Assembly (NCBI GenBank): GCA_020631355.1
Contig: JAHDHL010000001.1
Coordinates: 483,616-547,615, forward strand
DNA length: 64,000 nucleotides
Direction of reading: 5' to 3'
Source: Saprospiraceae bacterium
GTDB taxonomy: Bacteria > Bacteroidota > Bacteroidia > Chitinophagales > Saprospiraceae
The notes below the pieces were generated by a model that was not told where the DNA came from, did no database searches, and worked only from the letters and a program-made list of their open reading frames with translations. Positions 43,920-62,279 of the stretch are shown here, piece by piece. Each line of letters starts with the position of its first letter. Within the stretch, counting starts at the first letter, position 1. The translations under genes were made by a program, and so were the position numbers.

Positions 43920-45050
43920 TTAATAACTTTTATTTCTGAGTAAGAAATTAACATAAAGTGCCGCGCCAAATAAAATTAGGGCAACAGCCTGATGCAATAC
44001 GCCTAAAACAAGCGGAGCATCATTCTGATAATTGATTATTGTGAAGACTCCAAGGAGGAATTGAATTACTAACAATGTTATCAACATATTGTTTCCTGTC
44101 CTTAATTTGCGTGGAATATCCAGTTTCCGCAATTTGTTGAATAGCACTAAAACCATGATAACCAGCACATAAGCCAATCCTCTATGACTTACTTGTATCC
44201 AAGCTTTAGGAGTAGAATGTATCTCGTAATTAACAAAGTTATCAACATCCATCTGGTTTGAATTGAATAATTGTTTCACGAGCTGATCACCATTTACGAA
44301 AGCAGGAAAATGAGGGTGAACAACCCCCGCTTTTGTCCCTGCTACAAGGCCTCCGAGCAGGATTTGAATTACTAACATAGTTATCAACACCCATGAAAAT
44401 TTCCTGATTTTTGGTAGATCCAGGTCCATTTTTTCAGGATGTTTCACAATGAGATAAGTCCACCACAAATAACCGAAAAGCGCAGTTGCCACAACCAAAT
44501 GGAGTATCAGACGATAGGCACTTACCCGGGTTCGTAATATATCGGAGTTGAGTTCTGCTTCTGTATTCTGGATACCACTGTCTACCATTAGCCATCCCAT
44601 TATGGCGGCTGTAGCGGCAAGGAGTATCACTACGCCCAGCCGCATGATGATTCTCTTGGAGAAATATCGCTTTGATAGGAAGTAAATGAATGGAATGATA
44701 AAGATGAATCCCATAGAACGAGCCCAGAAGCGATGAAACCATTCCCAGAAATAGATGTATTTGAACTCTGAGAGCGTCATATCTGGATTCTTTATGTTAA
44801 ACTGGTGTTTGGCTCCTACCTTGTACTTTTCGAACGTCAGCTCCCATTGTTCTTGATTCAGGGGAGGAATCGTTCCTTCTATGATTTCCCATTCGGTAAT
44901 GGAAAGACCTGAATCTGTAAGGCGAGTAATCCCTCCTATCACGATTTGCCCTAAAACCAGGACCAATCCTAGGAATAACCAGGGAGCAATCCACTTGCGT
45001 CCTCTTTCTTGTGCTTCTACATCTGTAAGTAATCCAACTCTATTTTCCAT
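43920..45050 (-). CDS. ctaA: Haem A synthase (COX15/CtaA)
   Basis: Inner-membrane enzyme that oxidises haem O to haem A for cytochrome oxidase; 376 residues with about eight helices. Diagnostic stretches are GGITRLTDSGLSITEW, EWFHRFWARSMGFIF with a haem-ligating His, and the second-half HRGLAYVLV and LGVLHQAVALILFG. The two halves are related, and two helices (LVIQILLGG and LVIQFLLGV) are encoded by a near-identical 31-base direct repeat. The product feeds an aa3-type oxidase. It borders the candidate origin region. Confidence 0.93.
   Translation of the reverse strand: MENRVGLLTDVEAQERGRKWIAPWLFLGLVLVLGQIVIGGITRLTDSGLSITEWEIIEGTIPPLNQEQWELTFEKYKVGAKHQFNIKNPDMTLSEFKYIYFWEWFHRFWARSMGFIFIIPFIYFLSKRYFSKRIIMRLGVVILLAATAAIMGWLMVDSGIQNTEAELNSDILRTRVSAYRLILHLVVATALFGYLWWTYLIVKHPEKMDLDLPKIRKFSWVLITMLVIQILLGGLVAGTKAGVVHPHFPAFVNGDQLVKQLFNSNQMDVDNFVNYEIHSTPKAWIQVSHRGLAYVLVIMVLVLFNKLRKLDIPRKLRTGNNMLITLLVIQFLLGVFTIINYQNDAPLVLGVLHQAVALILFGAALYVNFLLRNKSY
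44056..44389 (-). repeat. 31-base direct repeat inside ctaA
   Basis: 44056-44086 and 44359-44389 agree at 28 of 31 positions. They encode corresponding helices in the two related halves of haem A synthase, so the protein's internal pseudo-symmetry explains much of the similarity. The high nucleotide identity suggests recent conversion or constraint. Confidence 0.75.
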
Positions 45051-45693
45051 AATGATTGAAATCTAATTGAACGAAAACATTTGATTCTACAAAGATGAAT
45101 CAAAACAGAATCATTTTGTTTATTCCAATAAAAAGGTTTCCTGTGATTGTATTAATTAATATTGAGTATAAATTTTAAAAAAAGCCCTCATCATCAGTAG
45201 TGTTAATTCGTTGAAAGAAATCGACCCGGGGATTATGATTTTAAAAAGCTAACAATCACCGGTACTGATTAACGCAATATCAACACCACTTTTCTCTGTC
45301 TATGAAATAGTTATGGATTTATAAACAGCTTGTTAGTATGTTTTCCCCGGTAAAAGTTTTTACAGTGTATAAAACTAATAACTGTTTATCACCGGGGAAA
45401 ACCTATGTGTAAACTCACATTTTGGGTGTTGATTCAGAAGTGCTTTCTTATTAACTTAGGATGAGTGTGAATCATGGTGGAAAACTAAGGAGTTATTCTA
45501 CATGTTATTCTATATGTAATGTGAATTAGGAAATCAGCTAAGCAGAAGATAATTATATCTTTACACATATGAAAAAATATAACTGTTAGTAATCTGTTTT
45601 CCACGCTTGCAATGATTTGTTTTTGATAAATGTTGGTATAAATGAACCGGTGTGGAAAGACCGGAACGTTGTATAATCTTGAATGTATCCGGT
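45051..45693. other. Candidate chromosomal replication origin (oriC)
   Basis: Non-coding stretch of about 640 bases. Contents: a very AT-rich run at 45151-45183; CCGG-centred motifs repeated at least seven times, including CCGGGGA; a long inverted repeat at 45340-45402; and three 9-mers one mismatch from the DnaA-box variant TTTTCCACA (45476-45484 and 45651-45659 on the minus strand, 45597-45605 on the plus strand). In sampled rows the + strand changes from C-rich to G-rich across it. Three parS-like sites lie 8-9 kb to the right. No dnaA gene is present, and no canonical TTATCCACA occurs here. Confidence 0.55.
45340..45402. repeat. 12-base perfect inverted repeat with 39-base spacer
   Basis: GTTTTCCCCGGT (45340-45351) and ACCGGGGAAAAC (45391-45402) are exact reverse complements. 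The spacer holds a smaller inverted pair, AGTTTT (45355-45360) and AAAACT (45371-45376). It is far from any stop codon, so it is unlikely to be a terminator. It may be a protein-binding or cruciform element of the candidate origin. Confidence 0.8.
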
Positions 45694-46362
45694 ATGTGTG
45701 GAAGGTTTTCGAACAAATTAACAGAGGAAAAGCTTGAGGCTTATATGGCTAAGGTGAAACTGAAATATGCACTTCAGCCTAACTATAATATAGCGCCAAG
45801 TCATTCTGCTTATGTTGTGAAGCAATCGAATCCTAATGAAATATCGGAGATGAGTTGGGGAATTTTTCCTTACGGAAAGACTACCGGAAACCTACTTATC
45901 AATGCCCGGAGTGAAACAATTTTTGAGAAACCAACATTCAAATATGCGATTCGTAACCGGAGATGTTTGGTTTTGGGAGATTCATTTTATGAATGGAAGA
46001 AGTCAGGAAAAGATCGTATTCCGTACCGGATATCATGGAAAGATGATGGAATGATGGTGTTTGCCGGACTGTATAATGAGTGGATAAATAATGGAAATCA
46101 GTTTTCTGGATTCGTTATTCTCACATCAGCTCCCAATTTGGAAATGTCTACTGTCCACAATCGAGCACCTGTATTGTTGAAAACTGAGGAAGAACAATTA
46201 TCCTGGATTTCGGATATTTCATATTCAAAAATTCAGGAACTGACACAACCATTACCTGATGAATTGCTTCATATATATAGGGTGTCCCAAGCAGTGAATA
46301 AACCCATTAATAATTCATTAGATTTGCATCGGGAAATTCCTGAACAACCTACATTATTTTAG
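45694..46362 (+). CDS. SOS response-associated peptidase (SRAP, YedK/HMCES)
   Basis: Protects abasic sites in single-stranded DNA by forming a covalent thiazolidine crosslink through its N-terminal Cys. The start must be the ATG at 45694, since only this places Cys at position 2 (MCGRFSN) for exposure after Met removal. Other hallmarks are NYNIAPSH, NARSETIFEKP, RCLVLGDSFYEWKK and a His in STVHNRAPVLL. It leads a tight operon with dtd, the MazG-like gene and the M50 protease (gaps of 3-14 bases). Confidence 0.93.
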   Translation: MCGRFSNKLTEEKLEAYMAKVKLKYALQPNYNIAPSHSAYVVKQSNPNEISEMSWGIFPYGKTTGNLLINARSETIFEKPTFKYAIRNRRCLVLGDSFYEWKKSGKDRIPYRISWKDDGMMVFAGLYNEWINNGNQFSGFVILTSAPNLEMSTVHNRAPVLLKTEEEQLSWISDISYSKIQELTQPLPDELLHIYRVSQAVNKPINNSLDLHREIPEQPTLF

Positions 46363-46369
46363 AATATAT

Positions 46370-46822
46370 ATGCGAGTAGTTATTCAGCGTGTAAGTGAGG
46401 CATCGGTTACCATTGATGGAAAAGTGAAATCTTCCATTAGTATGGGATTGTTAATATTATTGGGAATCGAATCTGAAGATGGTTTGGATGATATCCAATG
46501 GTTGAGCAGGAAAATTTCGGGCTTACGAATTTTCAATGATGAGAACGGAGTGATGAATAAATCAGTGATGGATGTAAATGGTGAAATCATTGTTGTGAGT
46601 CAATTCACCTTACATGCAAGTACGAAAAAAGGAAATCGTCCAAGTTATATCAAGGCTGCCAAACCTGAAGTTTCCATTCCATTGTATGAGAAATTTGTAG
46701 ATGTATTGAAGGAGACATCTGGAATTGAGGTGCAGACGGGAGAGTTTGGAGCTGATATGAAAGTAAGACTTTTGAACGATGGACCTGTTACCATTTTGAT
46801 GGATTCCAAGAATAAAGAATAA
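46370..46822 (+). CDS. dtd: D-aminoacyl-tRNA deacylase
   Basis: Hydrolyses D-amino acids wrongly attached to tRNA. The 150-residue product has the Dtd features MRVVIQRVSEASVTI at the start, SQFTLHASTKKGNRPSY with the SQFTL active-site motif, and NDGPVTILMDS containing the cross-subunit Gly-Pro motif. It sits seven bases after the SRAP stop and three bases before the MazG-like gene. Confidence 0.95.
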   Translation: MRVVIQRVSEASVTIDGKVKSSISMGLLILLGIESEDGLDDIQWLSRKISGLRIFNDENGVMNKSVMDVNGEIIVVSQFTLHASTKKGNRPSYIKAAKPEVSIPLYEKFVDVLKETSGIEVQTGEFGADMKVRLLNDGPVTILMDSKNKE

Positions 46823-46825
46823 ATC

Positions 46826-47164
46826 ATGACGATAGCCGAAGCACAAAAAATTGTTGATGAATGGATTAATACCATTGGTATCCGATATTATAATGAATTG
46901 ACAAATACGGCAATTCTTACTGAAGAAGTTGGGGAAGTTGCTCGATTGATGGCAAGAATTTATGGTGAACAATCGTTTAAGACACAAGCCCAGGCTGATT
47001 CTGCAAAAGAGGATTTGGCTGGAGAAATGGCCGATGTACTTTTTGTACTTATTTGTTTAGCGAACCAAACCGGGATTGATTTGACAGAGGCACTGACTCG
47101 AAGTTTGGATAAGAAGACGAAAAGGGACAAGGATCGTCATGCCAATAATGAAAAACTAAAGTAG
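46826..47164 (+). CDS. MazG-like nucleotide pyrophosphohydrolase
   Basis: 112 residues in the all-alpha NTP pyrophosphatase fold. The metal-binding pattern is EEVGEVARLMAR followed by EDLAGEMADVLFVLICLAN, equivalent to ExxE and ExxD. It likely removes non-canonical NTPs, or dUTP/dCTP-type nucleotides. It is part of the operon with SRAP, dtd and the M50 protease. Confidence 0.88.
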   Translation: MTIAEAQKIVDEWINTIGIRYYNELTNTAILTEEVGEVARLMARIYGEQSFKTQAQADSAKEDLAGEMADVLFVLICLANQTGIDLTEALTRSLDKKTKRDKDRHANNEKLK

Positions 47165-47177
47165 TTCTAATTATCAT

Positions 47178-48326
47178 ATGGGACCATCTATACAAATAGC
47201 GAAAATTCTAGGGATACCAATCAAATTGCATTGGACCTTTGTTTTTTTGATTCCACTGGGTATGTACCTGATGGAGATGCCCAATTTTGGTTCGGAGAAT
47301 CTTTTGTTTTTTTCAGTGCTATTTATTCTGATTAGTATCTGTGTTATTCTACATGAATATGGACATGCCTTGGCTGCCAAGTATTATGGAATAAAAACGG
47401 ATGATATTATTTTGTCTCCTTTATTTGGTGTAGCAAGAATTCAAAAATTACCAGATAGTCCATTGGGGGAATTTATTGTTGCTGTTGCGGGACCAGCTGT
47501 AAATATTTTAATTGGAATTATTTTCTTTATTTATTTACAAATAGTCAACCCTGAGTTTCTTTCCATTTTTGGTTATGAAATTTATCACTCCTTATTCTCA
47601 GAAGGTAAAAGGGTCGCTCAATTACCTGATGGATTTTCTAAGATTAATTTGGCCATAGCTATTTTGATATTGGTGAATTTAGGATTGGTTGTATTTAATT
47701 TGATTCCTGCATTTCCAATGGATGGTGGTCGAATGTTTAGGGCTATTCTTCATAGTTTCACTGATAAGTTGACTGCAACTAAGGTTGCAACATTCCTGGG
47801 TAAGTTCATATCTATCTTAATTATCTTATTATCAATACGTTATCATCAATACGGTATCGCATTGATTGGTGTTTTCATATATTATATGGCTGCCAGTGAG
47901 TTTAGGATGGTAAAAGGTGAGGCATTCCGTAATCAATTCCATATAGGTGATATGATGAAAACAGAATTCACTCGTTTGGATTCATTCACTACAAGAAAGC
48001 AAATAGAATATTTATTATATAGATCCCATGAAAAAAATTATTTGGTATTTGATCAAGAAAATAATTTAAAGGGCATATTAATAAAAGATAAAATTATAGA
48101 ATGGTTGGATAGTGAGAATTATTCATTTGAAAATGAAATAGACAATTATCTGATTATGGATTTTCCTACATTAAATGAAAATATGATTACGGATGAGGCA
48201 TTAGAAATAATGCGTACTTCTAATATTCGTTTTTTACCGATAGAAAAAGAAAATGAAATTATAGGTGTACTAAGTCGAAGTGTTATTTATGAATTCATGG
48301 AATTAAAAAAGAGGATTAGGTATTAG
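47178..48326 (+). CDS. Site-2-type membrane metalloprotease (M50) with CBS domains
   Basis: Intramembrane zinc protease of 382 residues. HEYGH (His59, Glu60, His63) sits in a membrane helix, and the third ligand lies in FPMDGGRMFRA. Several other hydrophobic helices surround these. Residues about 255-380 form two CBS motifs (IGDMMKTEFTRLD... and LIMDFPTLNENMITDEALEIM) that may sense adenine nucleotides. The DNA coding the CBS part is more AT-rich. It ends the housecleaning operon and converges with nadK. Confidence 0.92.
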   Translation: MGPSIQIAKILGIPIKLHWTFVFLIPLGMYLMEMPNFGSENLLFFSVLFILISICVILHEYGHALAAKYYGIKTDDIILSPLFGVARIQKLPDSPLGEFIVAVAGPAVNILIGIIFFIYLQIVNPEFLSIFGYEIYHSLFSEGKRVAQLPDGFSKINLAIAILILVNLGLVVFNLIPAFPMDGGRMFRAILHSFTDKLTATKVATFLGKFISILIILLSIRYHQYGIALIGVFIYYMAASEFRMVKGEAFRNQFHIGDMMKTEFTRLDSFTTRKQIEYLLYRSHEKNYLVFDQENNLKGILIKDKIIEWLDSENYSFENEIDNYLIMDFPTLNENMITDEALEIMRTSNIRFLPIEKENEIIGVLSRSVIYEFMELKKRIRY

Positions 48327-48336
48327 TACCCATTTC

Positions 48337-49224
48337 CTAATTTCTAGCATCTTTTCCCCAATCCAATTTATTTCTGATAGTCCATAAAAATTCCTTATCT
48401 GGAAACTTGATAAGGTCAATAGTGAAGTTGGCTTTCTTGATAGCGAAATTGTAATTGGAAGTTACAGTCTCGAATCTATTATCCAGTGTACATAGGAAAT
48501 TATCACTACGTCCTTCGACTTCGAAAGAGATGACCGATTCATCGGAAATAACAATTGGGCGAACATTCAGATTATGTGGAGCTACAGGTGTAACCACAAA
48601 ATTTCCTGAATTGGGAAACACAATCGGTCCGCCACAACTCAAGGAATATCCCGTAGATCCAGTTGGCGTAGCTACGATAATTCCATCAGCCCAATAAGAA
48701 TTCAGAAATGCACCATCTATATAGGTATGGATGGTAATCATGGATGAGGTGTCTCTTTTCAGAATCGTAAAATCATTCAGAGCAAAATTGGAACCATCAA
48801 AAATATCATCGGGATCAGTATCCAAATGAAGGAGGCGTCGTTGGTCCAGACTGAAATTCTTACTACAAAGATTATCAATACACGTCTTAATGTATGCCTT
48901 ATTGACACTTGCTAAAAAACCAAGTCGTCCGAGATTGATACCCACGATGGGTACATCAAAATCCTGAATAAGCATGGATGCATGTAGAATGGTGCCATCA
49001 CCTCCAAGGGTAATGAAGAAGTCAATTCCTTCCCGGACCTTGAAGTCGAGACTACTATCGAATTTACCAACAGGTCTGGGTAGGTTGATTTTTTTGTTGA
49101 CTTCCTCCAAGAAGGGCGTATATACCAAAGCCGTGATATCATACTCATCGAGTACGTCAAAAAGGTGTTGCACATATGCAACATCCTTGTCCTTAAGTGT
49201 ACGGCTATATACTACAACTTGCAT
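48337..49224 (-). CDS. nadK: NAD kinase
   Basis: Phosphorylates NAD to NADP, cytosolic, 295 residues. The family signature GGDGTIL is at 74-80, with Asp76 as the base, and NLGRLGFLASV and PTGSTGYSLSCGGPIV follow. Its ATG directly follows the stop of the BamA-like gene with no gap. It belongs to a minus-strand operon folA, BamA-like, nadK; the co-location may link NADPH supply with dihydrofolate reductase. Confidence 0.95.
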   Translation of the reverse strand: MQVVVYSRTLKDKDVAYVQHLFDVLDEYDITALVYTPFLEEVNKKINLPRPVGKFDSSLDFKVREGIDFFITLGGDGTILHASMLIQDFDVPIVGINLGRLGFLASVNKAYIKTCIDNLCSKNFSLDQRRLLHLDTDPDDIFDGSNFALNDFTILKRDTSSMITIHTYIDGAFLNSYWADGIIVATPTGSTGYSLSCGGPIVFPNSGNFVVTPVAPHNLNVRPIVISDESVISFEVEGRSDNFLCTLDNRFETVTSNYNFAIKKANFTIDLIKFPDKEFLWTIRNKLDWGKDARN

Positions 49225-50646
49225 TTAGAAGAATAGACTGAAATGTAAATATACTCCTTTTTCACCCAATCGATTGGTACTATATTCAACTTGAATCACC
49301 TTATCAATATAAATAACAAAATCTATTCCTATACCTCCGCCCCAAAGTAGTTCGTTGGAAAGTGGATTACCAATATTATAGTAGGGATCATTGACATATC
49401 CCAAATCGGAATTGATACTAAGGTATAATTGGAAAGGCATCAGCTTAAAGGATTTCAAAGGCATGATTTTTCCCCACTTGATTTTCTTGTTCAGGATTTC
49501 GTATCGAATACTACTTTTGAGGTATGCATAGTCCAATCCATCAATGACGTAGAATTCATATCCTCTTATGAAATCTTCCTCGTATCCCAAGGCCTTATTA
49601 TTATAGTAGTCTGGTTTCTGCCGTTGCAACTGAACCCTACCTTTGGATAAGAGTGCGAGACTATACTTCTTCTTTTTTCCGAATTGTAAATATTCTGCAA
49701 AAGTACCTGTAAGGAATAATGCATTCCTACCTTTGAAAATTCCGAATCCCTCTTTTGTAATTACACCCTCTGCAAAATGGCCCTTGAGTGGATAAGCTCT
49801 AATATCCCTTTTGTCTAATTGGTAAGTATAGGAAAGAGAGAAGAATTGTTGTTTACTTTTTCCATCCAAGAAAAAATCAGGATTTAGGATGTGAATGGAA
49901 TCCGCAACATTCCGATGGAAATAGGTGGCTTCAATCTTGTGACTCTCATACAGTCCTGGTCTATAAGTTGAGCCGACTCCAAATCTATACCGTCTCAGTA
50001 AATGACGATTATCATCCCGATAAAATTGAACATCATTTTCTAGGGTCCTTATCCCAACTTCCTTATTTCTGGTAAAGAGGAAATTGGTGTTGAGTCCGAA
50101 TGTCTTGGCTTCATTGATGAATGGTAATGTATATTCCAATTCGTACTTTTGGGTATATCCCAATTGGATGACTCCCTTGAGCAAATCCCTTCTACCACTC
50201 ACATTGGAATGGTATAACCTGACTCCATAATCTACCCGTTTGAATGAATGGTTATATTGTTGCCACCAGACGTTGAAGTTCCGATCGGCCAATTCGAATA
50301 TGGGAATGGGGTAGATATACCATGCTTCCTTTACATTAATAATTATAGTAATATGATTTGCGGCATCCCATTCACCAACATTGATTTCGACATCAAGGAA
50401 AAGACTCGTATTCAGAAGCAGTGTCTGATTCTTGGCCAAACGATTAGATAGATTTCCGAGTTGTATCGTATCACCAATTTGAAAATCCAATTCTCTTATA
50501 ATGGTTTCATCTCTTGTCTTATCATTTCCATCTATTTGGAATTTTAGAATTACAACCCGATTGGTTGTGTCAGATTGGCAAGTGACATGAGTTGTCAGTA
50601 TAAGTAAGGCGGAACTAAGTATTATATGTAGGAGAAAATTTCTCAA
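49225..50646 (-). CDS. BamA/TamA-family outer-membrane protein (POTRA plus barrel)
   Basis: 473 residues with a signal peptide ending near THVTCQ. A short POTRA-like part (VVILKFQIDGNDKTRDETIIRELDF, then LLLNTSLFLDVEI) precedes a 16-strand-type barrel, with repeats such as YTQKYELEYTLPFINEAKTFG. It ends in aromatic Phe residues (LHFSLFF), as expected for outer-membrane insertion. It is shorter than true BamA, so it is probably an accessory member such as a patatin-free two-domain Omp85 protein. The start lies 11 bases after the folA stop. Confidence 0.82.
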   Translation of the reverse strand: MRNFLLHIILSSALLILTTHVTCQSDTTNRVVILKFQIDGNDKTRDETIIRELDFQIGDTIQLGNLSNRLAKNQTLLLNTSLFLDVEINVGEWDAANHITIIINVKEAWYIYPIPIFELADRNFNVWWQQYNHSFKRVDYGVRLYHSNVSGRRDLLKGVIQLGYTQKYELEYTLPFINEAKTFGLNTNFLFTRNKEVGIRTLENDVQFYRDDNRHLLRRYRFGVGSTYRPGLYESHKIEATYFHRNVADSIHILNPDFFLDGKSKQQFFSLSYTYQLDKRDIRAYPLKGHFAEGVITKEGFGIFKGRNALFLTGTFAEYLQFGKKKKYSLALLSKGRVQLQRQKPDYYNNKALGYEEDFIRGYEFYVIDGLDYAYLKSSIRYEILNKKIKWGKIMPLKSFKLMPFQLYLSINSDLGYVNDPYYNIGNPLSNELLWGGGIGIDFVIYIDKVIQVEYSTNRLGEKGVYLHFSLFF

Positions 50647-50657
50647 TTGATAATAAT

Positions 50658-51167
50658 CTAAGATTCCTCTTTCTGAATTTTTTCAAAAATATTGAAAGTA
50701 TAGGAATGTTCATTTTTCTCATCAGGCTGGTAACTATCCTTAACGATATGATTCCAATTGCTAAAATCAATTTCAGGAAAGAATGTATCACCTCCCTCAA
50801 CTTCGAGATCAACTTCAGTCAAGTAGAGTCGGTCCCAATATTCCATACTCTGTTTATAGATTTCCCCGCCACCAATAATGAAAACTTCTTCTTCATTATT
50901 ATCGTATGCCATTTCCAATGCCTGCTCTATGGAATTCGTTATGACACAACCCGTAGCTATGAAAAAGGGTTGGCGCGTAATTACAATATTGGTTCTTTTG
51001 GGAAGTGGACGACCTATGGAGGTGAAAGTTTTTCTTCCCATGATGATATGACGATTCAATGTGGTTGCCTTGAAATATTTCAGGTCAGCAGGAAGATACC
51101 ATGGGATGTCATTATTCTTTCCCATTACATTATCCTTGGCAACGGCTACGATAGCTGAAACAATCAT
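50658..51167 (-). CDS. folA: Dihydrofolate reductase
   Basis: Reduces dihydrofolate with NADPH, 169 residues. Start MIVSAIVAVAKDNVMGKNNDIPW contains the Met20-loop region, and the active-site Asp is in YLPADLKYFK. IIMGRKTFTSIGRPLPKRTNIV and FIIGGGEIYKQSM are the cofactor-binding motifs. thyA is not adjacent. The gene is the first of the folA, BamA-like, nadK operon and is divergent from thrB. Confidence 0.96.
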   Translation of the reverse strand: MIVSAIVAVAKDNVMGKNNDIPWYLPADLKYFKATTLNRHIIMGRKTFTSIGRPLPKRTNIVITRQPFFIATGCVITNSIEQALEMAYDNNEEEVFIIGGGEIYKQSMEYWDRLYLTEVDLEVEGGDTFFPEIDFSNWNHIVKDSYQPDEKNEHSYTFNIFEKIQKEES

Positions 51168-51331
51168 ATTGAAATAATTTTAAATTGAGGTGAAAGGAAA
51201 TAATCGACTTTCAATGCGAAGATACAGCGACTCAAAAGAATGGTGTGGTTTTTACTTATATAAATTATGATTTTGGGTTTGTTGTTGTACTAAAGTCAAT
51301 GTGTATATATGACTTTATTTTTTACATGTTC

Positions 51332-51339
51332 TATCTTTG
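51332..51339 (+). promoter_or_regulatory. Candidate -7 element (TATCTTTG) of thrB
   Basis: Exact TAnnTTTG match 37 bases before the thrB ATG. A TTG at the usual upstream spacing was not found. Confidence 0.45.
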
Positions 51340-51376
51340 ATAGAATAGTATATAAAATGTAATTATATTGTTATAA

Positions 51377-52312
51377 ATGAGTAAGACAGGAATCAAAGTT
51401 TTTGCTCCAGCATCAGTTGGCAACATGGTTGTTGGCTTTGATATAATGGGGTTTGCATTAGATCGTCCGGGAGATGAAATTATAGTAAGACTCTCTGACC
51501 AACCAGGTTTGAGAATATCACAGATATATGGTGCTAAGGGAAAAATACCAAAAGCGACCAATCTTAATACAGCGGGAGTTGCGGCCCAAAAATTCTTAGA
51601 TCACATAGGTGAATCTGATAGGGGAATTGAAATGGAGATTTGGAAGAAGATGCCATTTGCAAGTGGACTGGGTTCAAGTGCTGCAAGTGCGGTGGCTGGG
51701 GTAATGGCCGTAAATGAATTATTGAAAAGGCCATTACAGAAAAGAGAACTTTTACCATTTGCATTAGCAGGGGAACAAGTTGCGAGCAAGGCCTTACATG
51801 GAGATAATGTTGCTCCATCTCTTTTGGGTGGAATTATCTTTATTCGGAATAATGAAGAAATGGATGTGCATCGGATTCCTAGTCCAAGAGGAATTTATGC
51901 TACAGTGATTCATCCTAAGATAGAAATCAAAACTGCAGAGGCTAGGGGAGTATTGAGTGATACGATTACAATGAAACAACACATTCTGCAAAGTGGAAAT
52001 TTGGGTGGACTTATCATTGGGTTATATAATTCTGATTTTGATCTTATAGGTAGGTCGCTTCAGGATTTAATTGTAGAACCTCAACGGTCCAAATTAATTC
52101 CTGGGTTTGATTCAGTTCAAACATCAGCTTTGAATGCTGGTGCATTGGGTTGTAGTATTTCAGGTGCAGGACCATCCATAGTTGCTTTGAGTGCAAATAG
52201 TCTAATTGCAGAAAATGTAGGGGAAGCGATGACTAAGGTTTTTCATGATATGAAAATTGAATCAGAGTTATTTATCTCTACAATTAACCAAGAGGGAGCA
52301 TTTAAATTTTAA
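51377..52312 (+). CDS. thrB: Homoserine kinase
   Basis: GHMP kinase that phosphorylates homoserine in threonine synthesis; 311 residues. APASVGNMVVGFDIMGFAL is the N-terminal motif, FASGLGSSAASAVAGVMA the phosphate loop, and CSISGAGPSIVAL the C-terminal motif. thrC starts two bases after its stop. The usual third partner thrA is not upstream; folA is divergent there instead. Confidence 0.95.
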   Translation: MSKTGIKVFAPASVGNMVVGFDIMGFALDRPGDEIIVRLSDQPGLRISQIYGAKGKIPKATNLNTAGVAAQKFLDHIGESDRGIEMEIWKKMPFASGLGSSAASAVAGVMAVNELLKRPLQKRELLPFALAGEQVASKALHGDNVAPSLLGGIIFIRNNEEMDVHRIPSPRGIYATVIHPKIEIKTAEARGVLSDTITMKQHILQSGNLGGLIIGLYNSDFDLIGRSLQDLIVEPQRSKLIPGFDSVQTSALNAGALGCSISGAGPSIVALSANSLIAENVGEAMTKVFHDMKIESELFISTINQEGAFKF

Positions 52313-52314
52313 TA

Positions 52315-53619
52315 ATGAAACTATATAGTACAAAGAATAAGACCCAATTCGTTGACTTGGATAGAGCGGTATTAAAAGGTTTACCAGATGATAATGGTTT
52401 ATTCATGCCCGAATACATAAGACCATTACCAACCGAATTCATCCAGAACTTGAAAGACTATTCTTTTCAAGAGATATCTTACAAGGTTTGTCAGCATCTT
52501 TTCAATGGATTTATTCCTGATAATGACTTAAAGGATATTGTATATGATGCTATAAACTTCCCTGCTCCTTTAGTGAAATTAGATAATCAAAAGTACATCT
52601 TAGAATTATTTCATGGTCCATCTTTAGCATTCAAGGATTTTGGGGCAAGATTTATGGCTCGTTTGATGAGTTATTTTGATAAAAAGAATGATGAAGAACT
52701 CGTGATTTTGGTAGCAACATCGGGTGATACTGGAGGTGCAGTGGCTGCTGGATTCTATCAAACTCCTGGAATAAGGGTTGTTATTCTTTATCCGAGTGGT
52801 AAAGTCAGTCATTTGCAGGAACAACAATTAACTACACTGGGGCATAATATTACTGCATTGGAAGTTGATGGGACGTTCGATGATTGCCAAGCAATGGTAA
52901 AGGAAGCATTTTTAGATAAGGATTTGACATCTAATATAAGGTTGACATCAGCTAATTCTATCAATATAGCTCGACTTATACCTCAGTCTTTTTATTATTT
53001 CGAAGCATATAAGCAATTAGAAAATCCATCTAATGTTATTTTTTGCATACCATCAGGTAACTTTGGTAACCTAACTGCAGGGTTATTTGCATCTAAAATG
53101 GGGCTTCCGATTAAGCAATTTATTGCAGCAACTAATGATAATAATGTAGTCCCATCATATTTATCCAGTGGTGAGTATGTCCCAAGACCAAGTACAAGGA
53201 CTATTTCTAATGCTATGGATGTAGGTAATCCATCTAATTTTGCTAGGATGCAAGACCTATTTGGTTTCACGTGGAACAATATGAAGCAGGAAATATCTGG
53301 TTTTTCTTATACTGATAAGGAAACTGAAAGTGGAATGAAAGAAGTATTAGACCACTATAACTATGTAATTGACCCACATGGAGCAGTAGGGTATAGGGCT
53401 TTAAAAGAGTATCAAGAGACAAATCCCGATACTCAAGGTGTGATTTTGGAGACTGCACACCCATCAAAGTTCTTACCTGATGTCGAGAGAGTGCTTGGAA
53501 ATGCACCTGTAGTACCTGAAAGATTGGCTGAAATTGCTGATAAAAAGAAAGAATCAGTATTCACTGAGAATGATTATAGTGTATTCAAAAGGTATTTATT
53601 GGATAATTATGTAGGGTAG
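52315..53619 (+). CDS. thrC: Threonine synthase
   Basis: PLP enzyme that converts O-phosphohomoserine to threonine; 434 residues. The PLP lysine is in FHGPSLAFKDFGARF, ATSGDTGGAVAAGF holds the phosphate-binding Ser/Thr, and IPSGNFGNLTAG is the Gly-rich loop. Two parS-like sites overlap it: one within codons around residue 317 (FTWNN) and one across the stop codon. A terminator follows inside the convergent DUF6702 gene. Confidence 0.96.
   Translation: MKLYSTKNKTQFVDLDRAVLKGLPDDNGLFMPEYIRPLPTEFIQNLKDYSFQEISYKVCQHLFNGFIPDNDLKDIVYDAINFPAPLVKLDNQKYILELFHGPSLAFKDFGARFMARLMSYFDKKNDEELVILVATSGDTGGAVAAGFYQTPGIRVVILYPSGKVSHLQEQQLTTLGHNITALEVDGTFDDCQAMVKEAFLDKDLTSNIRLTSANSINIARLIPQSFYYFEAYKQLENPSNVIFCIPSGNFGNLTAGLFASKMGLPIKQFIAATNDNNVVPSYLSSGEYVPRPSTRTISNAMDVGNPSNFARMQDLFGFTWNNMKQEISGFSYTDKETESGMKEVLDHYNYVIDPHGAVGYRALKEYQETNPDTQGVILETAHPSKFLPDVERVLGNAPVVPERLAEIADKKKESVFTENDYSVFKRYLLDNYVG
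53263..53278. other. parS-like ParB-binding site 1 (inside thrC)
   Basis: GGTTTCACGTGGAACA matches the widespread parS sequence TGTTTCACGTGGAACA at 15 of 16 positions, with only the first base different. It lies inside the thrC reading frame, which is compatible because parS sites often lie within coding sequence. Confidence 0.85.
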
Positions 53620-53633
53620 TTTCACGTGGAACA
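53618..53633. other. parS-like ParB-binding site 2 (over the thrC stop)
   Basis: AGTTTCACGTGGAACA matches TGTTTCACGTGGAACA at 15 of 16 positions. It overlaps the thrC stop codon TAG (53617-53619) and lies three bases from the convergent DUF6702 gene. Confidence 0.87.
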
Positions 53634-53635
53634 TC

Positions 53636-54124
53636 CTATTCTAATGATAATTGATATTTAGAGTGTCCTTTTTCTAAGAGGGCACTCTTTGTTTTTTTAT
53701 CAATATTGATATTTAAAAGGTGCTTTTGGTCTTTGAAAGTGTCGAATAGTAGTGTATTCTTTATTTTGAAATCCTTTATTTTTTTGACTTTCGATGCTTC
53801 TAGGTATATCCAAATAATATCATCTTCGTATTCTTTACCTAAATAATTAATCTCAATATCCTTTTTATTGATAGAAATAGCTACGTTTTTAAGTATATAT
53901 TCTTCTATATAACCATCAGAATTACTCAACTCTTCCTCTGTATTAAGGTTTAATTTAAAGGATTTACCCTTTGATACTGCTTTGTCAAGATCATCAGTAA
54001 ATAGCTTTATTGATGTTTCTAAGCTCTTATTCTCCTTATTGTAATAGATTTCGCCATATCCGAAGTGATAATCATGACTTAATTGAATGGATGTAAGGAC
54101 TAGAAAGTAGAGTAAATAAGGCAT
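53636..54124 (-). CDS. DUF6702 family exported protein
   Basis: 162 residues with a short hydrophobic start and a His-Asp-Tyr-His-Phe segment that begins the DUF6702 pattern (HDYHFGYGEIYYNKENKSLETSIKLFTDDL). The middle is a beta-rich NKKDIEINYLGKEYEDDIIWIYLE. Such genes commonly sit beside M1 aminopeptidases in Bacteroidota, as here (divergent, 115 bases apart). It lies between parS sites 2 and 3. The function is unknown. Confidence 0.75.
   Translation of the reverse strand: MPYLLYFLVLTSIQLSHDYHFGYGEIYYNKENKSLETSIKLFTDDLDKAVSKGKSFKLNLNTEEELSNSDGYIEEYILKNVAISINKKDIEINYLGKEYEDDIIWIYLEASKVKKIKDFKIKNTLLFDTFKDQKHLLNINIDKKTKSALLEKGHSKYQLSLE
53660..53698 (+). terminator. thrC terminator inside the convergent gene's 3' end
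   Basis: AGAGTGTCC (53660-53668) pairs with GGGCACTCT (53680-53688), nine base pairs with one G-T wobble, followed on the + strand by a T-rich tail (TTGTTTTTTT). It therefore terminates the threonine operon within the last codons of the DUF6702 gene. Confidence 0.75.
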
Positions 54125-54134
54125 AATTCATTGT

Positions 54135-54150
54135 TGTTTCACGTGAAACC
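54135..54150. other. parS-like ParB-binding site 3
   Basis: TGTTTCACGTGAAACC contains a perfect 14-base palindrome GTTTCACGTGAAAC (54136-54149) and matches parS TGTTTCACGTGAAACA at 15 of 16 positions. It lies in the 115-base divergent gap between the DUF6702 and M1 peptidase genes. It is the best of the three sites. Confidence 0.92.
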
Positions 54151-54238
54151 AAGACAAAAATTCATCGAAACAGATGGGAGAAAAGTCTTATTTTTACGTT
54201 GTAATTTCCTAGAAAGGATGATTTAAATAAAATATTCA

Positions 54239-56581
54239 ATGATGCGATTACACTTTAAAGTTATTACTTCTTTAGTATTACTGCTACTATTTAACCATAT
54301 ATTAATATATGGACAAGTAGATAATACTAATAAAAGTAAGTTTAAACAGTTGGGCCAAGAGCTTCCAACACCCAATTCTTACCGTGCTGCTTCTGGCGCA
54401 CCAGGCCATGAGTATTGGCAACAAAAGGCAGATTATGTAATTCAATTAGAATTAGATGATGAAAAGCAGCGAATCTATGGTGAAGAATCCATTACATATT
54501 TCAATAATTCTCCTGATGAATTAAGGTATTTATGGTTGCAGTTGGACCAAAATATGCGTGCGAAAGACTCTGATACGTATAAAACAGCGACGAATGGAAT
54601 GAATGAGGAGATGAATATTGGTCAATTAGGTAGGATGATGAATGATTTTGATGGTGGTTTTAAGCTGGATTTTGTCCAGGATGCCAATGGTAAAGCATTG
54701 GATTATACCGTCAATAAAACCATGATGAGAATTGATTTACCTAATGTAATGAAGACTGGAGATTCTTTTACATTTAATGTAAAGTGGTGGTATAATATCA
54801 ACGATCGAATGAAAATCGGTGGTCGTTCTGGATATGAATACTTTGCTGAAGATGATAATTACCTTTATACTATTGCACAATTCTTTCCAAGAATGTGTGT
54901 TTATGACGATGTAAATGGATGGCAACATAAACAATTTTTGGGTAGAGGTGAGTTTGCTTTGACATTCGGAGATTATGAAGTAGACATTACTGTACCAGAA
55001 GATCACCTTGTTGCGGCTACTGGAACCCTTGAAAATCCTACAGATGTAATGTCTGATAATATGCTTAAGCAATGGGAAAAAGCAAAGAATTCTTTTGAGG
55101 ATATAGTCATTATCTCTGATCAAAAGGATGCAGAAAAGAGAGAAAAGACAAAGAAAAAAGGGAAGAAGACATGGAAATTCAAGGCTGAAAATGTTCGTGA
55201 TTTTGCTTTTGCATCATCAAGAAAGTTCATCTGGGATGCTATGGCAGTGAAGATGAGCGATGGTAGAGTAGTAATGGCTGAATCCATGTACCCTAAAGAG
55301 GGGAATCCTTTATGGGAACAATACTCAACAAAAGCTGTAGCTCATACACTGAAATGGTATTCTCATTATACTATTGATTATCCTTATCCTGTTGCGTGGT
55401 CAATTCATGCCAAGAGTATTGGTATGGAATACCCTATGATTTGCTTCAATTTTGGTCGTCCTGAAAAAGATGGTACTTATACAGCAAGAACAAAATATGG
55501 GATGATAGGTGTAATAATCCATGAGGTTGGACATAATTTCTTCCCGATGATTATCAATTCGGATGAAAGACAATGGACTTGGATGGATGAAGGTTTGAAC
55601 AGTTTTGTACAGTATTTGGCCCAAAATGAATGGGAAAGAAACTTCCCATCAAGGAGAGGACCAGCATATAAGATTGTTAATTACATGAAAGGTGATAAGG
55701 AAAACATTGTACCTATCATGACTAACTCTGAATCCATACTTCAGTTTGGTAATAATGCATATGGTAAACCAGCTACAGCATTGAATATTTTAAGAGAAAC
55801 TGTAATGGGGCGAGAATTATTCGATCATGCATTTAAGGAGTATTGTAGAAGATGGGCATTCAGACATCCATCTCCAGCTGACTTTTTCCGTTCTATGGAG
55901 GACGCTTCTGGTGTAGATTTGGATTGGTTTTGGAGAGGTTGGTTCTATACAACTGACCATTGTGATATTGCTATTTCTGATGTAAAGTGGTACCAAGTGG
56001 ACTCTCAAAATCCCTTAAAGGAAAGTATTACTGATAAGGCGAAAAGAGATGCTGCTACAGTGAATATTTCAGATATCAGAAATAAGGAGTCAATCAAGAA
56101 AACCCAGGATGAAATTGACCCTAGTCTACGTGATTTCTATTCTACTTATGATCCACTAAATCCTGATGCTATAGATACAAAAGAGTATAAGGAATACTTG
56201 GCTTCTCTATCCAAGGAGGAAAGAGCACTTTTGGATGCAGGTCTGAATTTCTATGAAATTTCATTTGAGAATATTGGTGGACTTATTATGCCACTTATCA
56301 TAGAGTTTGAATATACAGATGGTACCAAGGAAGTAGAACGAATTCCTGCAGAAGTATGGAAGAGTAGAAATGAAAAGATTTCAAAAGTATTCATCAAGAC
56401 TAAGGAGGTTAAGCAAATTACCCTTGATCCATTTTTAGAAACTGCAGATACAGATACAAGCAATAATTATTATCCTGAAAAGAAAGAAGCTTCAAGGTTT
56501 GAATTATTCAAGCAGAAGTCATTCTCTAGGGAAAATCCAATGCAGAGAGCTGAAAGAGCTAAGAAAGTAAAGAATCCTTAG
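54239..56581 (+). CDS. M1-family metallopeptidase
   Basis: Exported aminopeptidase of 780 residues with a signal peptide ending near ILIYGQ. The zinc motif is HEVGHN (His428, Glu429, His432), and the third ligand Glu451 is in MDEGLNSF. The substrate-binding motif appears as IGMEYPM in place of GAMEN. It probably trims peptides in the periplasm or at the cell surface. The start could also be the second ATG at 54242. A terminator follows it. Confidence 0.93.
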   Translation: MMRLHFKVITSLVLLLLFNHILIYGQVDNTNKSKFKQLGQELPTPNSYRAASGAPGHEYWQQKADYVIQLELDDEKQRIYGEESITYFNNSPDELRYLWLQLDQNMRAKDSDTYKTATNGMNEEMNIGQLGRMMNDFDGGFKLDFVQDANGKALDYTVNKTMMRIDLPNVMKTGDSFTFNVKWWYNINDRMKIGGRSGYEYFAEDDNYLYTIAQFFPRMCVYDDVNGWQHKQFLGRGEFALTFGDYEVDITVPEDHLVAATGTLENPTDVMSDNMLKQWEKAKNSFEDIVIISDQKDAEKREKTKKKGKKTWKFKAENVRDFAFASSRKFIWDAMAVKMSDGRVVMAESMYPKEGNPLWEQYSTKAVAHTLKWYSHYTIDYPYPVAWSIHAKSIGMEYPMICFNFGRPEKDGTYTARTKYGMIGVIIHEVGHNFFPMIINSDERQWTWMDEGLNSFVQYLAQNEWERNFPSRRGPAYKIVNYMKGDKENIVPIMTNSESILQFGNNAYGKPATALNILRETVMGRELFDHAFKEYCRRWAFRHPSPADFFRSMEDASGVDLDWFWRGWFYTTDHCDIAISDVKWYQVDSQNPLKESITDKAKRDAATVNISDIRNKESIKKTQDEIDPSLRDFYSTYDPLNPDAIDTKEYKEYLASLSKEERALLDAGLNFYEISFENIGGLIMPLIIEFEYTDGTKEVERIPAEVWKSRNEKISKVFIKTKEVKQITLDPFLETADTDTSNNYYPEKKEASRFELFKQKSFSRENPMQRAERAKKVKNP

Positions 56582-56608
56582 TAACTGATTGATTATCAAT
56601 AGATTAAC

Positions 56609-56642
56609 AGAGGTACTGCTTTAGGGTAGTGCCTCTTTTTTA
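56609..56642 (+). terminator. Terminator of the M1 peptidase gene
   Basis: GAGGTACTGC (56610-56619) pairs with GTAGTGCCTC (56626-56635), ten base pairs with two G-T wobbles. It is followed by a run of six T. It lies 28 bases after the stop at 56581. Confidence 0.85.
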
Positions 56643-56744
56643 TTTAATTAATTGAAAATCAGATAGTTATGATTGTTTTTGATAAAAAATAGATATCAGT
56701 TGTTCTCAATACGCTACATGTATATATCTAATCAGCCAATTCAT

Positions 56745-56752
56745 TATTTTTG
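56745..56752 (+). promoter_or_regulatory. Candidate -7 element (TATTTTTG) of hutH
   Basis: Exact TAnnTTTG match 29 bases before the hutH ATG. No clear TTG at -33. Confidence 0.4.
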
Positions 56753-56781
56753 TAATCCTAATTATAGACGAAGCATAGATA

Positions 56782-58296
56782 ATGAAACCAAACCACCATT
56801 ACATATCTACCCAATCTCTTTCGATTACAGATATTGAAAATATCATCAATGAGAATAAGACACTGAGTCTTTCTGAGGACGCTATTCAAAAAATTCAGAA
56901 TTGTAGGGATTATCTAGATAAGAAGTTAAACGATAATGAAACTGCATTTTATGGTATCAATACAGGATTCGGTTCTTTGTGTAATGTAATTATCGAAGGA
57001 GAAGAATTAGAAGAACTTCAGCATAATCTGGTAAAGAGTCATGCATGTGGAATGGGGGAGGAGGTACCCCAACATTTGGTGAAGTTGATGATTCTTCTGA
57101 AAATTCAAAGTTTATCATACGGACATTCAGGAGTAAGAATAGAAGTCGTACAAAGACTCATTGATTTTTATAATGCGAATGCTCTTCCTATAATTTATCA
57201 ATTGGGTTCACTTGGTGCTTCTGGAGACTTGGCCCCTTTGGCACATATGAGTTTGGCATTGATAGGTGAGGGGGAAATGAATTTTCAGGGTTCAAGAATT
57301 GAGGCAAAATTGGTTCATGAAAAAATGAATTGGAATGCCCTCCGCTTACAATCCAAGGAAGGGATAGCATTGTTGAATGGAACACAATTTTCCTTAGGAT
57401 ATGGATTATGGAGTTCTATGATGTCTAACCGACTATCCAAACTTTCGGATTTGATTGGTGCTATGTCATTGGATGCATTCGATGGAAGAATTGAACCATT
57501 CGATGATAGGGTACATCAGAATAGGCCGCACCCCTGGCAAATTTTTACTGCCAAACGTTTTCGGGATTTATTGGAAGGAAGTGAAATTATTACACAAGAA
57601 AAAACAGCCGTTCAAGATCCATATGCTTTTCGATGTATTCCTCAGGTTCATGGTGCAAGTAAAAGTACAATTGATTATGTACGAGGAGTGATGGAAACCG
57701 AATTGAATTCCGTAACGGATAACCCCAATATTTTTCCTGAAACAGATGCGATAATTTCCGGTGGAAATTTTCATGCTCAACCATTGGCCTTGGCTTCTGA
57801 TTTTTTAGCGATTGCACTTGCCGAACTTGGAAATATTTCTGAACGTAGGGTTTATCAATTAATCGGCGGGCAAAGAGGTTTGCCCGTTTTCATGACAGAA
57901 GGTGCCGGCCTCCATTCTGGTTTTATGATTAGCCAATATACAGCTGCTTCGATAGTAAGTCAGAATAAACAACTTTGTACTCCCGCATCCGTCGATTCCA
58001 TAGTTTCATGTAATGGTCAAGAAGATCATGTAAGTATGGCCGCTAATGCAGGTACCAAATTGTATAAGGTCGTCCAAAATGTAGAATCATTGCTATCAAT
58101 AGAGTTGATGGTTGCGGCCAAGGGATTAGAATTTAGGCATCCTAAAAAATCATCTCCACGAATAGAGCAACTATTATCAGATTACAGAAAGCATGTTACA
58201 TCATTGAAAGAAGATAGGATACTATACAAAGACATGCATCAAAGCGTTCATTTTTTGAGGCATCTGGATTTATCATCATATCTACCTTCTGAATGA
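56782..58296 (+). CDS. hutH: Histidine ammonia-lyase
   Basis: Converts histidine to urocanate, the first step of histidine degradation; 504 residues. The Ala146-Ser147-Gly148 triad in GSLGASGDLAPLAH should cyclise to the MIO cofactor. FYGINTGFG carries the catalytic Tyr58, and GGNFHAQPLAL is the later conserved loop. No hutU, hutI or hutG is adjacent. The stop overlaps the start of the next gene by four bases (ATGA). Confidence 0.93.
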   Translation: MKPNHHYISTQSLSITDIENIINENKTLSLSEDAIQKIQNCRDYLDKKLNDNETAFYGINTGFGSLCNVIIEGEELEELQHNLVKSHACGMGEEVPQHLVKLMILLKIQSLSYGHSGVRIEVVQRLIDFYNANALPIIYQLGSLGASGDLAPLAHMSLALIGEGEMNFQGSRIEAKLVHEKMNWNALRLQSKEGIALLNGTQFSLGYGLWSSMMSNRLSKLSDLIGAMSLDAFDGRIEPFDDRVHQNRPHPWQIFTAKRFRDLLEGSEIITQEKTAVQDPYAFRCIPQVHGASKSTIDYVRGVMETELNSVTDNPNIFPETDAIISGGNFHAQPLALASDFLAIALAELGNISERRVYQLIGGQRGLPVFMTEGAGLHSGFMISQYTAASIVSQNKQLCTPASVDSIVSCNGQEDHVSMAANAGTKLYKVVQNVESLLSIELMVAAKGLEFRHPKKSSPRIEQLLSDYRKHVTSLKEDRILYKDMHQSVHFLRHLDLSSYLPSE

Positions 58297-59423
58297 AATG
58301 GCATAATGTCAAAATAGTAGGAATTCTAATTCTAGTATTTTCTTCTTTTTCCCTAAAAGGACAAATTGGGAAGAATTGGGCATTTGAGAGTAATACCTAT
58401 GTGGGACAAATTACAAAACACACCCCAAAGATATTATTTGATGTTAATCGACTAGCCGTAGGTCAGGATTTTAATTTCAAGAAGCAAACCTACGGAAATG
58501 ACAAATGGAGTCAGTTTCAACGATACCCAGATTTGGGGATTTCCCTGTTGTATTTTAATCTGGGAGATAAGGAAGTTTTGGGACAAGCCATTGGTATCAT
58601 GCCCAATGCTACTGTAAAATTACTTCGAACCCAAAAAGGCTTTATCAATTTTCAAATCGGATGGGGGCTAGGATATGTAAACAAATTTTATCATCCTGTA
58701 GATAATCCGACAAACAACGCCTTGGGTTCTGCCTGGAATAATTTAGTACTCTTTAAATTTGATGGAGGTGTTCACATCAATAATTATTGGTCTACACAGA
58801 TGGGATTCAGTCTTACCCATTATTCGAATGGTGCTTCCCAACTTCCCAATTTTGGAATTAATGTCATAGCCGCGAATATTGGTTTACGATATACACCCAA
58901 CCCCGTAAAAAGAGAAGATTACATATTCGATGAGCATCATTTGAATGTACCCGAGAAAAGATGGGGTGGACAAGTTCATTTTGATTTGGCTTACAGGGAA
59001 TATGGAAAAAGTGGTGGTCCCCGATATCCAATCTATGTATTGTCTTCTTCAGGGATGTTTCATTTTAATGCTGTGAATCGAATGCATTTGGGATTAGAGA
59101 TGGAATACAATTCTGGTGTTTATCATTTTTTGAAACATAGCTCCTTGAATCCTGATTTGCAATATGCCAAACAGCAATCTTACCGAACGATGGTATTTGC
59201 AGCTCACGAATTCACAATGGGTGATGTTGGTATGTATATATTACTTGGGACTTATCTCCAATCGAAAGAACAAATTCCTGGTCGGATTTATAACAAGCTT
59301 TCTGCAAGATATTACTTCAAACCCGTAGGTAAACCTGCTACAAGATTTTTTGTGGCAGTCTATTTGAAATCCCATTTATCAGTTGCTGAATACTTGGCAT
59401 TTGGTGTGGGTGCTTCCCTTTGA
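58293..59423 (+). CDS. PagL/acyloxyacyl-hydrolase-like outer-membrane protein
   Basis: 376 residues with a signal peptide (ending near SLKGQ) and barrel strands. The motif THYSNGASQLPN resembles the His-Ser catalytic pair of PagL-type lipid A 3-O-deacylases and of the Bacteroidota acyloxyacyl hydrolase family. If active it would trim a fatty acid from lipid A in the outer membrane. It is translationally coupled to hutH by a four-base overlap, an unexpected partner. The lack of a mapped Glu makes activity uncertain. Confidence 0.7.
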   Translation: MKWHNVKIVGILILVFSSFSLKGQIGKNWAFESNTYVGQITKHTPKILFDVNRLAVGQDFNFKKQTYGNDKWSQFQRYPDLGISLLYFNLGDKEVLGQAIGIMPNATVKLLRTQKGFINFQIGWGLGYVNKFYHPVDNPTNNALGSAWNNLVLFKFDGGVHINNYWSTQMGFSLTHYSNGASQLPNFGINVIAANIGLRYTPNPVKREDYIFDEHHLNVPEKRWGGQVHFDLAYREYGKSGGPRYPIYVLSSSGMFHFNAVNRMHLGLEMEYNSGVYHFLKHSSLNPDLQYAKQQSYRTMVFAAHEFTMGDVGMYILLGTYLQSKEQIPGRIYNKLSARYYFKPVGKPATRFFVAVYLKSHLSVAEYLAFGVGASL

Positions 59424-59575
59424 TTATTTCTAATCATACGAATTTCCAGATTATCATAATTTCAATTCTACTGTAAATCAGCGATTTCGAAGAAATTTTA
59501 AATTTTTTTGAAAAAAGTGCATTTTATTTTATGGAAAATCTGTGGATTTGGACTCTTATAAATAGATACTTTTAG

Positions 59576-59733
59576 TTGCCGATTTTATAGAGTTAACTGG
59601 AGTCTTTCATGATCTCTCTATGAACACATGATTTTCTCGGACTTAAAAAATTATACTTCAGTTAATTACTCTAAAAAATGAATCACTCTCTATATTTTCA
59701 AGCATAACTGGCGCCCACCGGTTATGCTTTTTT
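59576..59733 (+). ncRNA. Candidate structured small RNA or long 3' leader region
   Basis: Fills the roughly 300-base gap after 59423. The outer helix is TTTT-TAGAGT-TAACTG (59583-59599) pairing with CAGTTA-ACTCTA-AAAA (59659-59677), 16 base pairs with small bulges. Inside it are AGTC/GACT (59601-59604 with 59640-59643) and TCATG/CATGA (59607-59611 with 59627-59631). A strong Rho-independent terminator closes the 3' end. A weak promoter-like TACTTTTA lies at 59567-59574. No known family was recognised. Confidence 0.45.
59700..59733 (+). terminator. Strong + strand terminator before the isomerase gene
   Basis: 59700-59711 pairs with 59718-59729, 12 base pairs with one T-G wobble and a six-base loop, followed by a T-run on the + strand. 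It lies about 280 bases after the nearest + strand stop (59423) and overlaps the 3' end of the minus-strand gene. The T-run is poor on the minus strand, so a + strand transcript seems intended. Confidence 0.85.
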
Positions 59734-60492
59734 ATTGGGCTTTAGTCGACCTACCATTTTTTGAAGAATGAATTTGGGTTCATCAGAATGCCAGTGAGCA
59801 ATAGTTACTTTTCTTTCTTCCTCGGTTACTTTCAATTTACCTAATAATTCTCTCCTCAAAACTTTCTTCGTTTTGTACAAGGTAGAACTAGGTAATTTCA
59901 AATATTGCTTCATTTTCTTTTCGGCATTAGCAAGTACTTCTTCTTGGGATACAATTTCATCTACCAAGTGAATGGCCAGTGCTTCCTGAGGATTGAAAAG
60001 TTTTCCTTCAAGTACCGCTTGATACGCTTTACCCATTCCTATCCAGAATGCATATAATTCAAGAAATCCATGTGGCAATAAAATCCCAACAGGTACTTCG
60101 TTCAGTCCAATCATGAATTTTGAATCTTCAGCCATAACTCGATAATCACTAGCTATCGCAATAAGACAACCACCAGCTGGACTATAGCCGGTTATAGCAG
60201 AAATCAATATTTTCTGAAAAGCTGCTAATTCATAGATCAAACTTGAAAAGCTATACCAGAATTCTAACATTTCTCCTTCATTATAGGTGATGAGCTCTAC
60301 CACATCCAAACCTGCAGAGAAAAAATTTCTTTGTCCTGTTAGTACAATACCCCTTAGACTATCATCATTTTCTACTTGCTCCAAAAGTAATCTGAGTTCG
60401 GATATCAAGTCTGCATTCAATGCATTAGCACGACCCCGATTCATCTGTGCAACGATATATCCTTCCTTCTTTTCAATAATGATATTATTCAT
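59722..60492 (-). CDS. Enoyl-CoA isomerase/hydratase, ECI1-like
   Basis: Crotonase-fold protein; the ATG at 60492 (MNNIIIEKKEG) gives 256 residues, removing a nine-residue tail. RANALNADLI, FFSAGLDVVEL and GYSPAGGCLIAIASDYRVM form the oxyanion and CoA-binding regions. GLNEVPVGILLPHGF resembles the GLNETQLGI signature of mitochondrial delta3,delta2-enoyl-CoA isomerase more than that of hydratases. A role in unsaturated fatty acid oxidation is likely. No other beta-oxidation genes are adjacent. Confidence 0.82.
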   Translation of the reverse strand: MNNIIIEKKEGYIVAQMNRGRANALNADLISELRLLLEQVENDDSLRGIVLTGQRNFFSAGLDVVELITYNEGEMLEFWYSFSSLIYELAAFQKILISAITGYSPAGGCLIAIASDYRVMAEDSKFMIGLNEVPVGILLPHGFLELYAFWIGMGKAYQAVLEGKLFNPQEALAIHLVDEIVSQEEVLANAEKKMKQYLKLPSSTLYKTKKVLRRELLGKLKVTEEERKVTIAHWHSDEPKFILQKMVGRLKPNKKA

Positions 60493-60715
60493 GAATCCAA
60501 TTTTGTGATGAACAAACAAAATAGAAAACTTTCATGTGGATTTTAAGTAGCTTGGATTTAAACTTCACACTATAATAAAAGTCTTATATTTAACGGATTA
60601 CTAGCAAAGATTGAATCCGCAGTGATTGCTATTGTGGACAAAATTCAGCAATTTTACATTAGGCCTAACCTGGACACCACTCTACTACACACTTCTTATT
60701 CACAAATGTTGATAA

Positions 60716-61606: not shown

Positions 61607-61651
61607 AATTGAATAATTAATTATTTAATCCTTGGATTATTTTTCAATTTT
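61605..61651 (+). other. Nested hairpin between the two DUF1549-like genes
   Basis: AAAATTGAA (61605-61613) pairs with TTCAATTTT (61643-61651), and inside it TAATCC (61626-61631) pairs with GGATTA (61634-61639). It begins at the stop codon of the upstream gene. It may act as a partial terminator or RNA-stability element in the cassette. Confidence 0.4.
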
Positions 61652-61659
61652 ATTCATAA

Positions 61660-62190: not shown

Positions 62191-62279
62191 AAGAATTAAT
62201 TCTAATTTAATGGAAAAAAATAATTCGATTATTAATTTAATTCGAATTAAATATCTCAACATTTCATTATTTATTTTTT

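Follow-up and report, generated by a model that had tools for sequence, protein, structure and literature searches.

The intergenic interval at 45051-45693 of the window (the whole analysed stretch of 64 kb, bases 483,616-547,615 of contig C134) is, with a probability of about 0.92, the chromosomal replication origin (oriC) of this Saprospiraceae genome, where a DnaA-box array and a DnaA-trio module would open the adjoining AT-rich DNA. The interval has a skew minimum, a composition switch seen in the genes of both strands, a conserved module, and box slots at fixed positions, and the DnaA of this genome has a canonical domain IV. A sequence-only reading had proposed an origin here, and the proposal is supported by the skew minimum, the module, the boxes at fixed offsets, and the closed genome of a relative (G088). 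The interval and its neighbouring genes are as follows.

45051..45693, no strand: putative oriC interval, cox15 to the SRAP gene, with the skew minimum at 45,296
43920..45050, minus strand: cox15/ctaA (heme A synthase; Pfam PF02628), left flank kept across the family
45694..46362, plus strand: SRAP (YedK/HMCES-type) gene (Pfam PF02586), right flank
46370..46822, plus strand: dtd, D-aminoacyl-tRNA deacylase (Pfam PF02580), next gene to the right of SRAP

Location of the skew minimum

The genome comprises 6.16 Mb in 142 contigs, and the skew was followed over all of contig C134 and part of contig C66. Summed along the 64-kb window, G-C is lowest at 45,296, and the cumulative GC-skew minimum of the entire contig C134 (583,027 bases), at base 528,911, is the same position. 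The proposed switch from C-rich to G-rich DNA is thereby confirmed; of the check that had been suggested for it, a whole-chromosome minimum near 45.3 kb, the part made on contig C134 gave a position inside the interval. A single change point fitted to the skew in 3-kb blocks falls best on the boundary between blocks at the interval, with a mean of -0.068 to its left and +0.087 to its right (Mann-Whitney p 2e-8, for blocks that are not fully independent). The blocks are negative in 81% of cases on the left and positive in 78% on the right. The G+C content also changes: it is ~0.40 on the left of the origin and ~0.35 on the right, where it remains low as far as the window end (44000-64000).

Conserved module and AT-rich DNA

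Along the minus strand, in the direction from SRAP to cox15, come box-like sites and then CTTTCAACG, AATTAACA, the triplets CTA CTG ATG ATG, AGGGC, and TTTTTTTAAAATTTA. Mismatches are counted from the DnaA-box consensus TTATCCACA.

45209..45217, minus strand: DnaA-box slot of the putative unwinding module, offset -13, CTTTCAACG, 4 mismatches
45201..45208, minus strand: conserved spacer AATTAACA of 8 bases between box and trios, from alignments
45189..45200, minus strand: DnaA-trio-like triplets CTA CTG ATG ATG (other strand 3'-GAT GAC TAC TAC-5'), from the relatives' alignment and the definition in PMC8287927
45150..45182, no strand: AT-rich stretch adjoining the trios, likely unwinding element, from the duplex stability of relatives
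45337..45405, no strand: inverted repeat with 15-nt arms (45337-45351 and 45391-45405), 93% complementary

Slot -13 reads TTATCTACA or TTATCCACA in many relatives, and in 17 of 49 the box there departs from the consensus at no more than one base. The middle base of the triplets, T (A on the other strand), at offsets 8, 11, and 14 is kept in 49/49, 49/49, and 48/49 relatives, respectively, and the positions flanking it are more variable.

The AT-rich DNA and inverted repeats that had been noticed in the interval are both present. With 69% A+T, the interval ranks in the top 1.5% among stretches of 643 bases in contig C134, and when duplex stability is averaged over 47 relatives the sharpest minimum lies beside the trios, at offset about +40, as would suit the AT-rich unwinding region of an oriC. 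In the interval itself, the 50 bases of lowest stability lie at 45544-45598, away from the trios. A degenerate box-like TTTTCCCCG occurs in both arms of the inverted repeat. Rfam and tRNA scans of the window gave no matches. Elsewhere in the window, positions 12001-14000 have a G+C content of 0.31 and are strongly unstable DNA.

DnaA boxes on fixed slots

Among 49 relatives, boxes that differ from the consensus at one base or none accumulate at these offsets from the module: -13, -71, -82, -125, -137, -167, -198, -281, -298, -310, -325, and -390, and each of these 12 slots has one preferred orientation. Slot -281 is filled most often (22/48 relatives). The relatives' own agreement with the slots is circular because the slots were chosen from them; the window was left out of that definition. 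Its box-like sites at the slots, apart from the one in the module, include the following.

45277..45285, plus strand: slot -82, ATATCAACA, 2 mismatches
45393..45401, minus strand: slot -198, within an arm of the inverted repeat, TTTTCCCCG, 3 mismatches
45476..45484, minus strand: slot -281, TTTTCCACC, 2 mismatches
45494..45514, plus strand: slot pair -298 and -310, TATTCTACA and TATTCTATA, 3 and 4 mismatches
45520..45528, minus strand: slot -325, TAATTCACA, 2 mismatches
45597..45605, plus strand: further box-like site at offset -401, TTTTCCACG

At the same offset of -401, a same-genus relative (L012) has TTTTCCACA, as reverse complement. Over the 12 slots the window accumulates 46 mismatches, compared with 64.5 (sd 4.4) for the array displaced by 395 different shifts. 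Across both strands of the contig, 31,456 positions give 66.3 (sd 4.0), with none as low as the window and a minimum of 48, and in 5,000 simulated sequences it is 65.0 (sd 4.0), with a minimum of 51. When the box orientations are swapped, the score of the window itself becomes 64. Since three of the 49 relatives belong to the same genus, the match partly reflects shared descent; the sequence between the slots is poorly alignable.

As to the DnaA-box-like 9-mers of the sequence-only reading, ten with 2 mismatches occur in the interval against 3.5 expected. The consensus search found no box with 0-1 mismatch in the interval, and the density alone is not unique, as other stretches of the contig reach 12. 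It is the position on the family slots, not the density, that makes these 9-mers significant. A consensus box search alone was discarded as a guide to the window, being misleading where nothing falls within one mismatch.

The weakness of the boxes could also mean that the interval is an origin that has decayed, with another initiator, another DnaA-box consensus, or a second origin in use, and in most of the listed relatives the 700 bases upstream of the module do hold several boxes no more than one mismatch from the consensus, where this genome has none. Such decay is nevertheless improbable. The DnaA domain IV motif GGRDHSTV is intact and the same as in relatives with good boxes, which argues for the usual DnaA-box specificity, and the weak boxes are kept at the right places and in the right orientations, a retention that decay would erase.

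The module in the family

The genome is assigned to Saprospiraceae because the named relatives retrieved by its cox15 protein belong mostly to that family, the nearest being L133 (Saprospiraceae bacterium MAG-67). In a first comparison, the module was found to be kept beside cox15 in eight relatives. A sequence-only profile of the module (R1) has matches at E<=0.1 in 132 of 150 sampled family genomes, a count inflated by chance matches, and at E<1e-4 in about 55 of the 150. All 30 best R1 loci adjoin cox15, with SRAP or dtd on the other side in most. In the present genome the module is the sole strong R1 match (E 4e-16; next listed 0.015). The relatives very probably share this start site, in the same gene neighbourhood and with DnaA boxes at fixed positions.

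cox15 and the SRAP gene are transcribed divergently, and the SRAP gene keeps its place beside the origin in most family loci examined. Proteins of the SRAP (YedK/HMCES) type protect abasic sites in single-stranded DNA, and a functional tie between this gene and the origin may be guessed at. An adjacent dnaA, which is common for an oriC and is not required, is absent; dnaA lies at 391,420 of contig C66, apart from the interval. No skew switch was seen around dnaA, where the sampled skew is negative to the end of contig C66.

The closed genome of G088 (4,345,237 bases) has the module at 2,052,304-2,052,360, between cox15 and SRAP, and a local skew minimum at 2,052,643, about 300 bases from it. 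Its skew is negative in 7/7 sampled stretches from 1 to 1.82 Mb and positive in 7/7 from 2.3 Mb on. dnaA is at base 617, ~2 Mb from the module, and near the terminus, to judge from a second turn of the sampled skew close to base 1. Haliscomenobacter hydrossis (G156), with a genome of 8,371,686 bases (PMC3156403), has dnaA at 544 and the module at 3.80 Mb; its skew is weak, with a local minimum about 19 kb from the module. G024 has its local minimum about 77 kb away. The module and the skew minimum therefore coincide exactly in 2 of the 4 genomes tested, and approximately or not at all in the other 2. In three of four closed family genomes examined (G088, G093, and G156) dnaA is the deposited start, and the module lies at least 2 Mb away. 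The present result would place the origin in a large family in which the numbering of closed genomes starts at dnaA, and coverage-based growth-rate estimates in metagenomes depend on the right origin. H. hydrossis also has two weak DnaA AAA+ family matches with identical scores (G156:C1:619629 and 2925939), perhaps a repeated mobile-element helper protein.

Other causes of the composition switch

It is very improbable that the interval is a mere divergent promoter region of cox15 and SRAP whose skew shift comes from gene orientation, although it probably holds promoters too. The two genes do diverge, and 29 genes to the right of the interval are on the plus strand and 9 on the minus strand. 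However, the third-codon-position skew is -0.112 in plus genes and -0.109 in minus genes on the left, and +0.141 and +0.084, respectively, on the right. This reversal in the genes of both strands, as the sequence-only reading had noticed, shows that gene orientation is not the cause of the switch. Moreover, the switch ends a skew run of 528 kb, and a promoter region predicts neither the 12-slot DnaA-box array nor a module that recurs beside nadA or nadD.

Least credible of all is that the switch is a boundary left by a misassembly or by a recent inversion or insertion, with the true origin elsewhere, as might be suspected from the 142-contig assembly, the fall in G+C from ~0.40 to 0.35, and the two relatives whose local skew minima lie away from the module, because the gene order and the module around the interval are the same across the family, the sole run of N in contig C134 (at 49,516) is 479 kb from the interval, and the module is unique in the genome.

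Comparison with known systems

The interval resembles the DnaA-dependent bacterial oriC in its skew minimum, AT-rich intergenic DNA, DnaA-box-type sites, and adjacent unwinding region. It differs in the distant dnaA, in having only weak boxes, and in box positions that are conserved family-wide. The origins predicted by Ori-Finder and listed in DoriC are likewise based on skew, indicator genes, and boxes, and oriC is not always near dnaA according to Ori-Finder (PMC10225481).

A further likeness is to the basal unwinding system (BUS) of Bacillus subtilis oriC (PMC8287927, PMC6669920), made up of DnaA-box, spacer, and DnaA-trios; shared are a box followed by NAN triplets, a conserved middle base, and AT-rich DNA beyond. 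By definition a BUS has, within 16 bases of a box, three or more NAN triplets, and this box is either the sole one, with at most 2 mismatches from TTATCCACA, or belongs to a pair with up to 2 and 4 mismatches (PMC8287927). Here the triplets CTA CTG ATG ATG follow after 8 bases, within the definition; the box CTTTCAACG, with 4 mismatches, falls outside it, and the strict published rule skips this site. The boxes of relatives are within the mismatch limit. The B. subtilis triplets are repeated GAT, whereas those of the window are GAT GAC TAC TAC. By this analogy we infer that the module is homologous to the BUS and may work like one, outside the strict rule. The BUS rule applied to the interval gives seven matches, none at the conserved module, and these were judged to be chance. 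Origins away from dnaA and modules of the BUS type are already known; a literature search, mostly without subscription journals, found no paper on a Saprospiraceae origin or on family-conserved box positions.

Proposed mechanism

On the model of the B. subtilis system, from which DnaA binding, oligomer growth, opening, and helicase loading are all taken over, DnaA from the distant gene would bind the array of mostly weak boxes over ~400 bases on the SRAP side, and the bound DnaA would assemble into an oligomer. The oligomer would extend from the slot at 45209-45217 onto CTA CTG ATG ATG and stretch this strand. The AT-rich stretch on the cox15 side would then open, allowing helicase loading and the start of two forks. 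Against an oriC count the lack of any box with at most one mismatch, the 4 mismatches of the module box, the skew minima of G156 and G024 off the module, and the position of the least stable DNA elsewhere in the interval. The relatives offer natural variants in which the DnaA-trio rule can be tested, with the middle base fixed and the outer bases free, and in which it can be asked if box position outweighs box strength.

Similar modules beyond the family

At even odds, Saprospiraceae origins in general are arrays of fixed geometry, with about a dozen boxes whose distances and orientations relative to a box-spacer-trio module are set; the geometry would be better conserved than the box sequence, and the present genome would run on weak boxes only. 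A similar module, its triplets altered and their middle bases the same, would extend to other families of the order and to one or more further groups of the class. The order's other families yield full-length matches to a second profile, built from family sequences alone (R2), and most of those inspected have box clusters upstream. The flanking genes outside the family, where identified, are nadA (L302, L306, and L316) and a nadD-type nucleotidyltransferase (L316 and L318), not cox15. In these loci the flanking genes have changed and the similar module has stayed. The triplet middle base is kept in 18, 17, and 13 of 18 out-of-family loci, and ATG changes to ATA or GTA. These 18 are best or full-length matches, and their agreement is partly built in because the model by which they were picked includes these columns.

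Across the phylum, R1 matches beyond the family are mostly partial and have no boxes, and a phylum-wide signature is therefore not claimed. The exception is L105, which belongs to a different group of the class and did not enter the R2 build; it has 14 boxes with at most one mismatch in the 600 bases upstream of a similar module; from this arrangement, the site is probably an origin. The genome of L105 is G+C-rich, and the DnaA boxes upstream of its module are dense (L105:1-3071).
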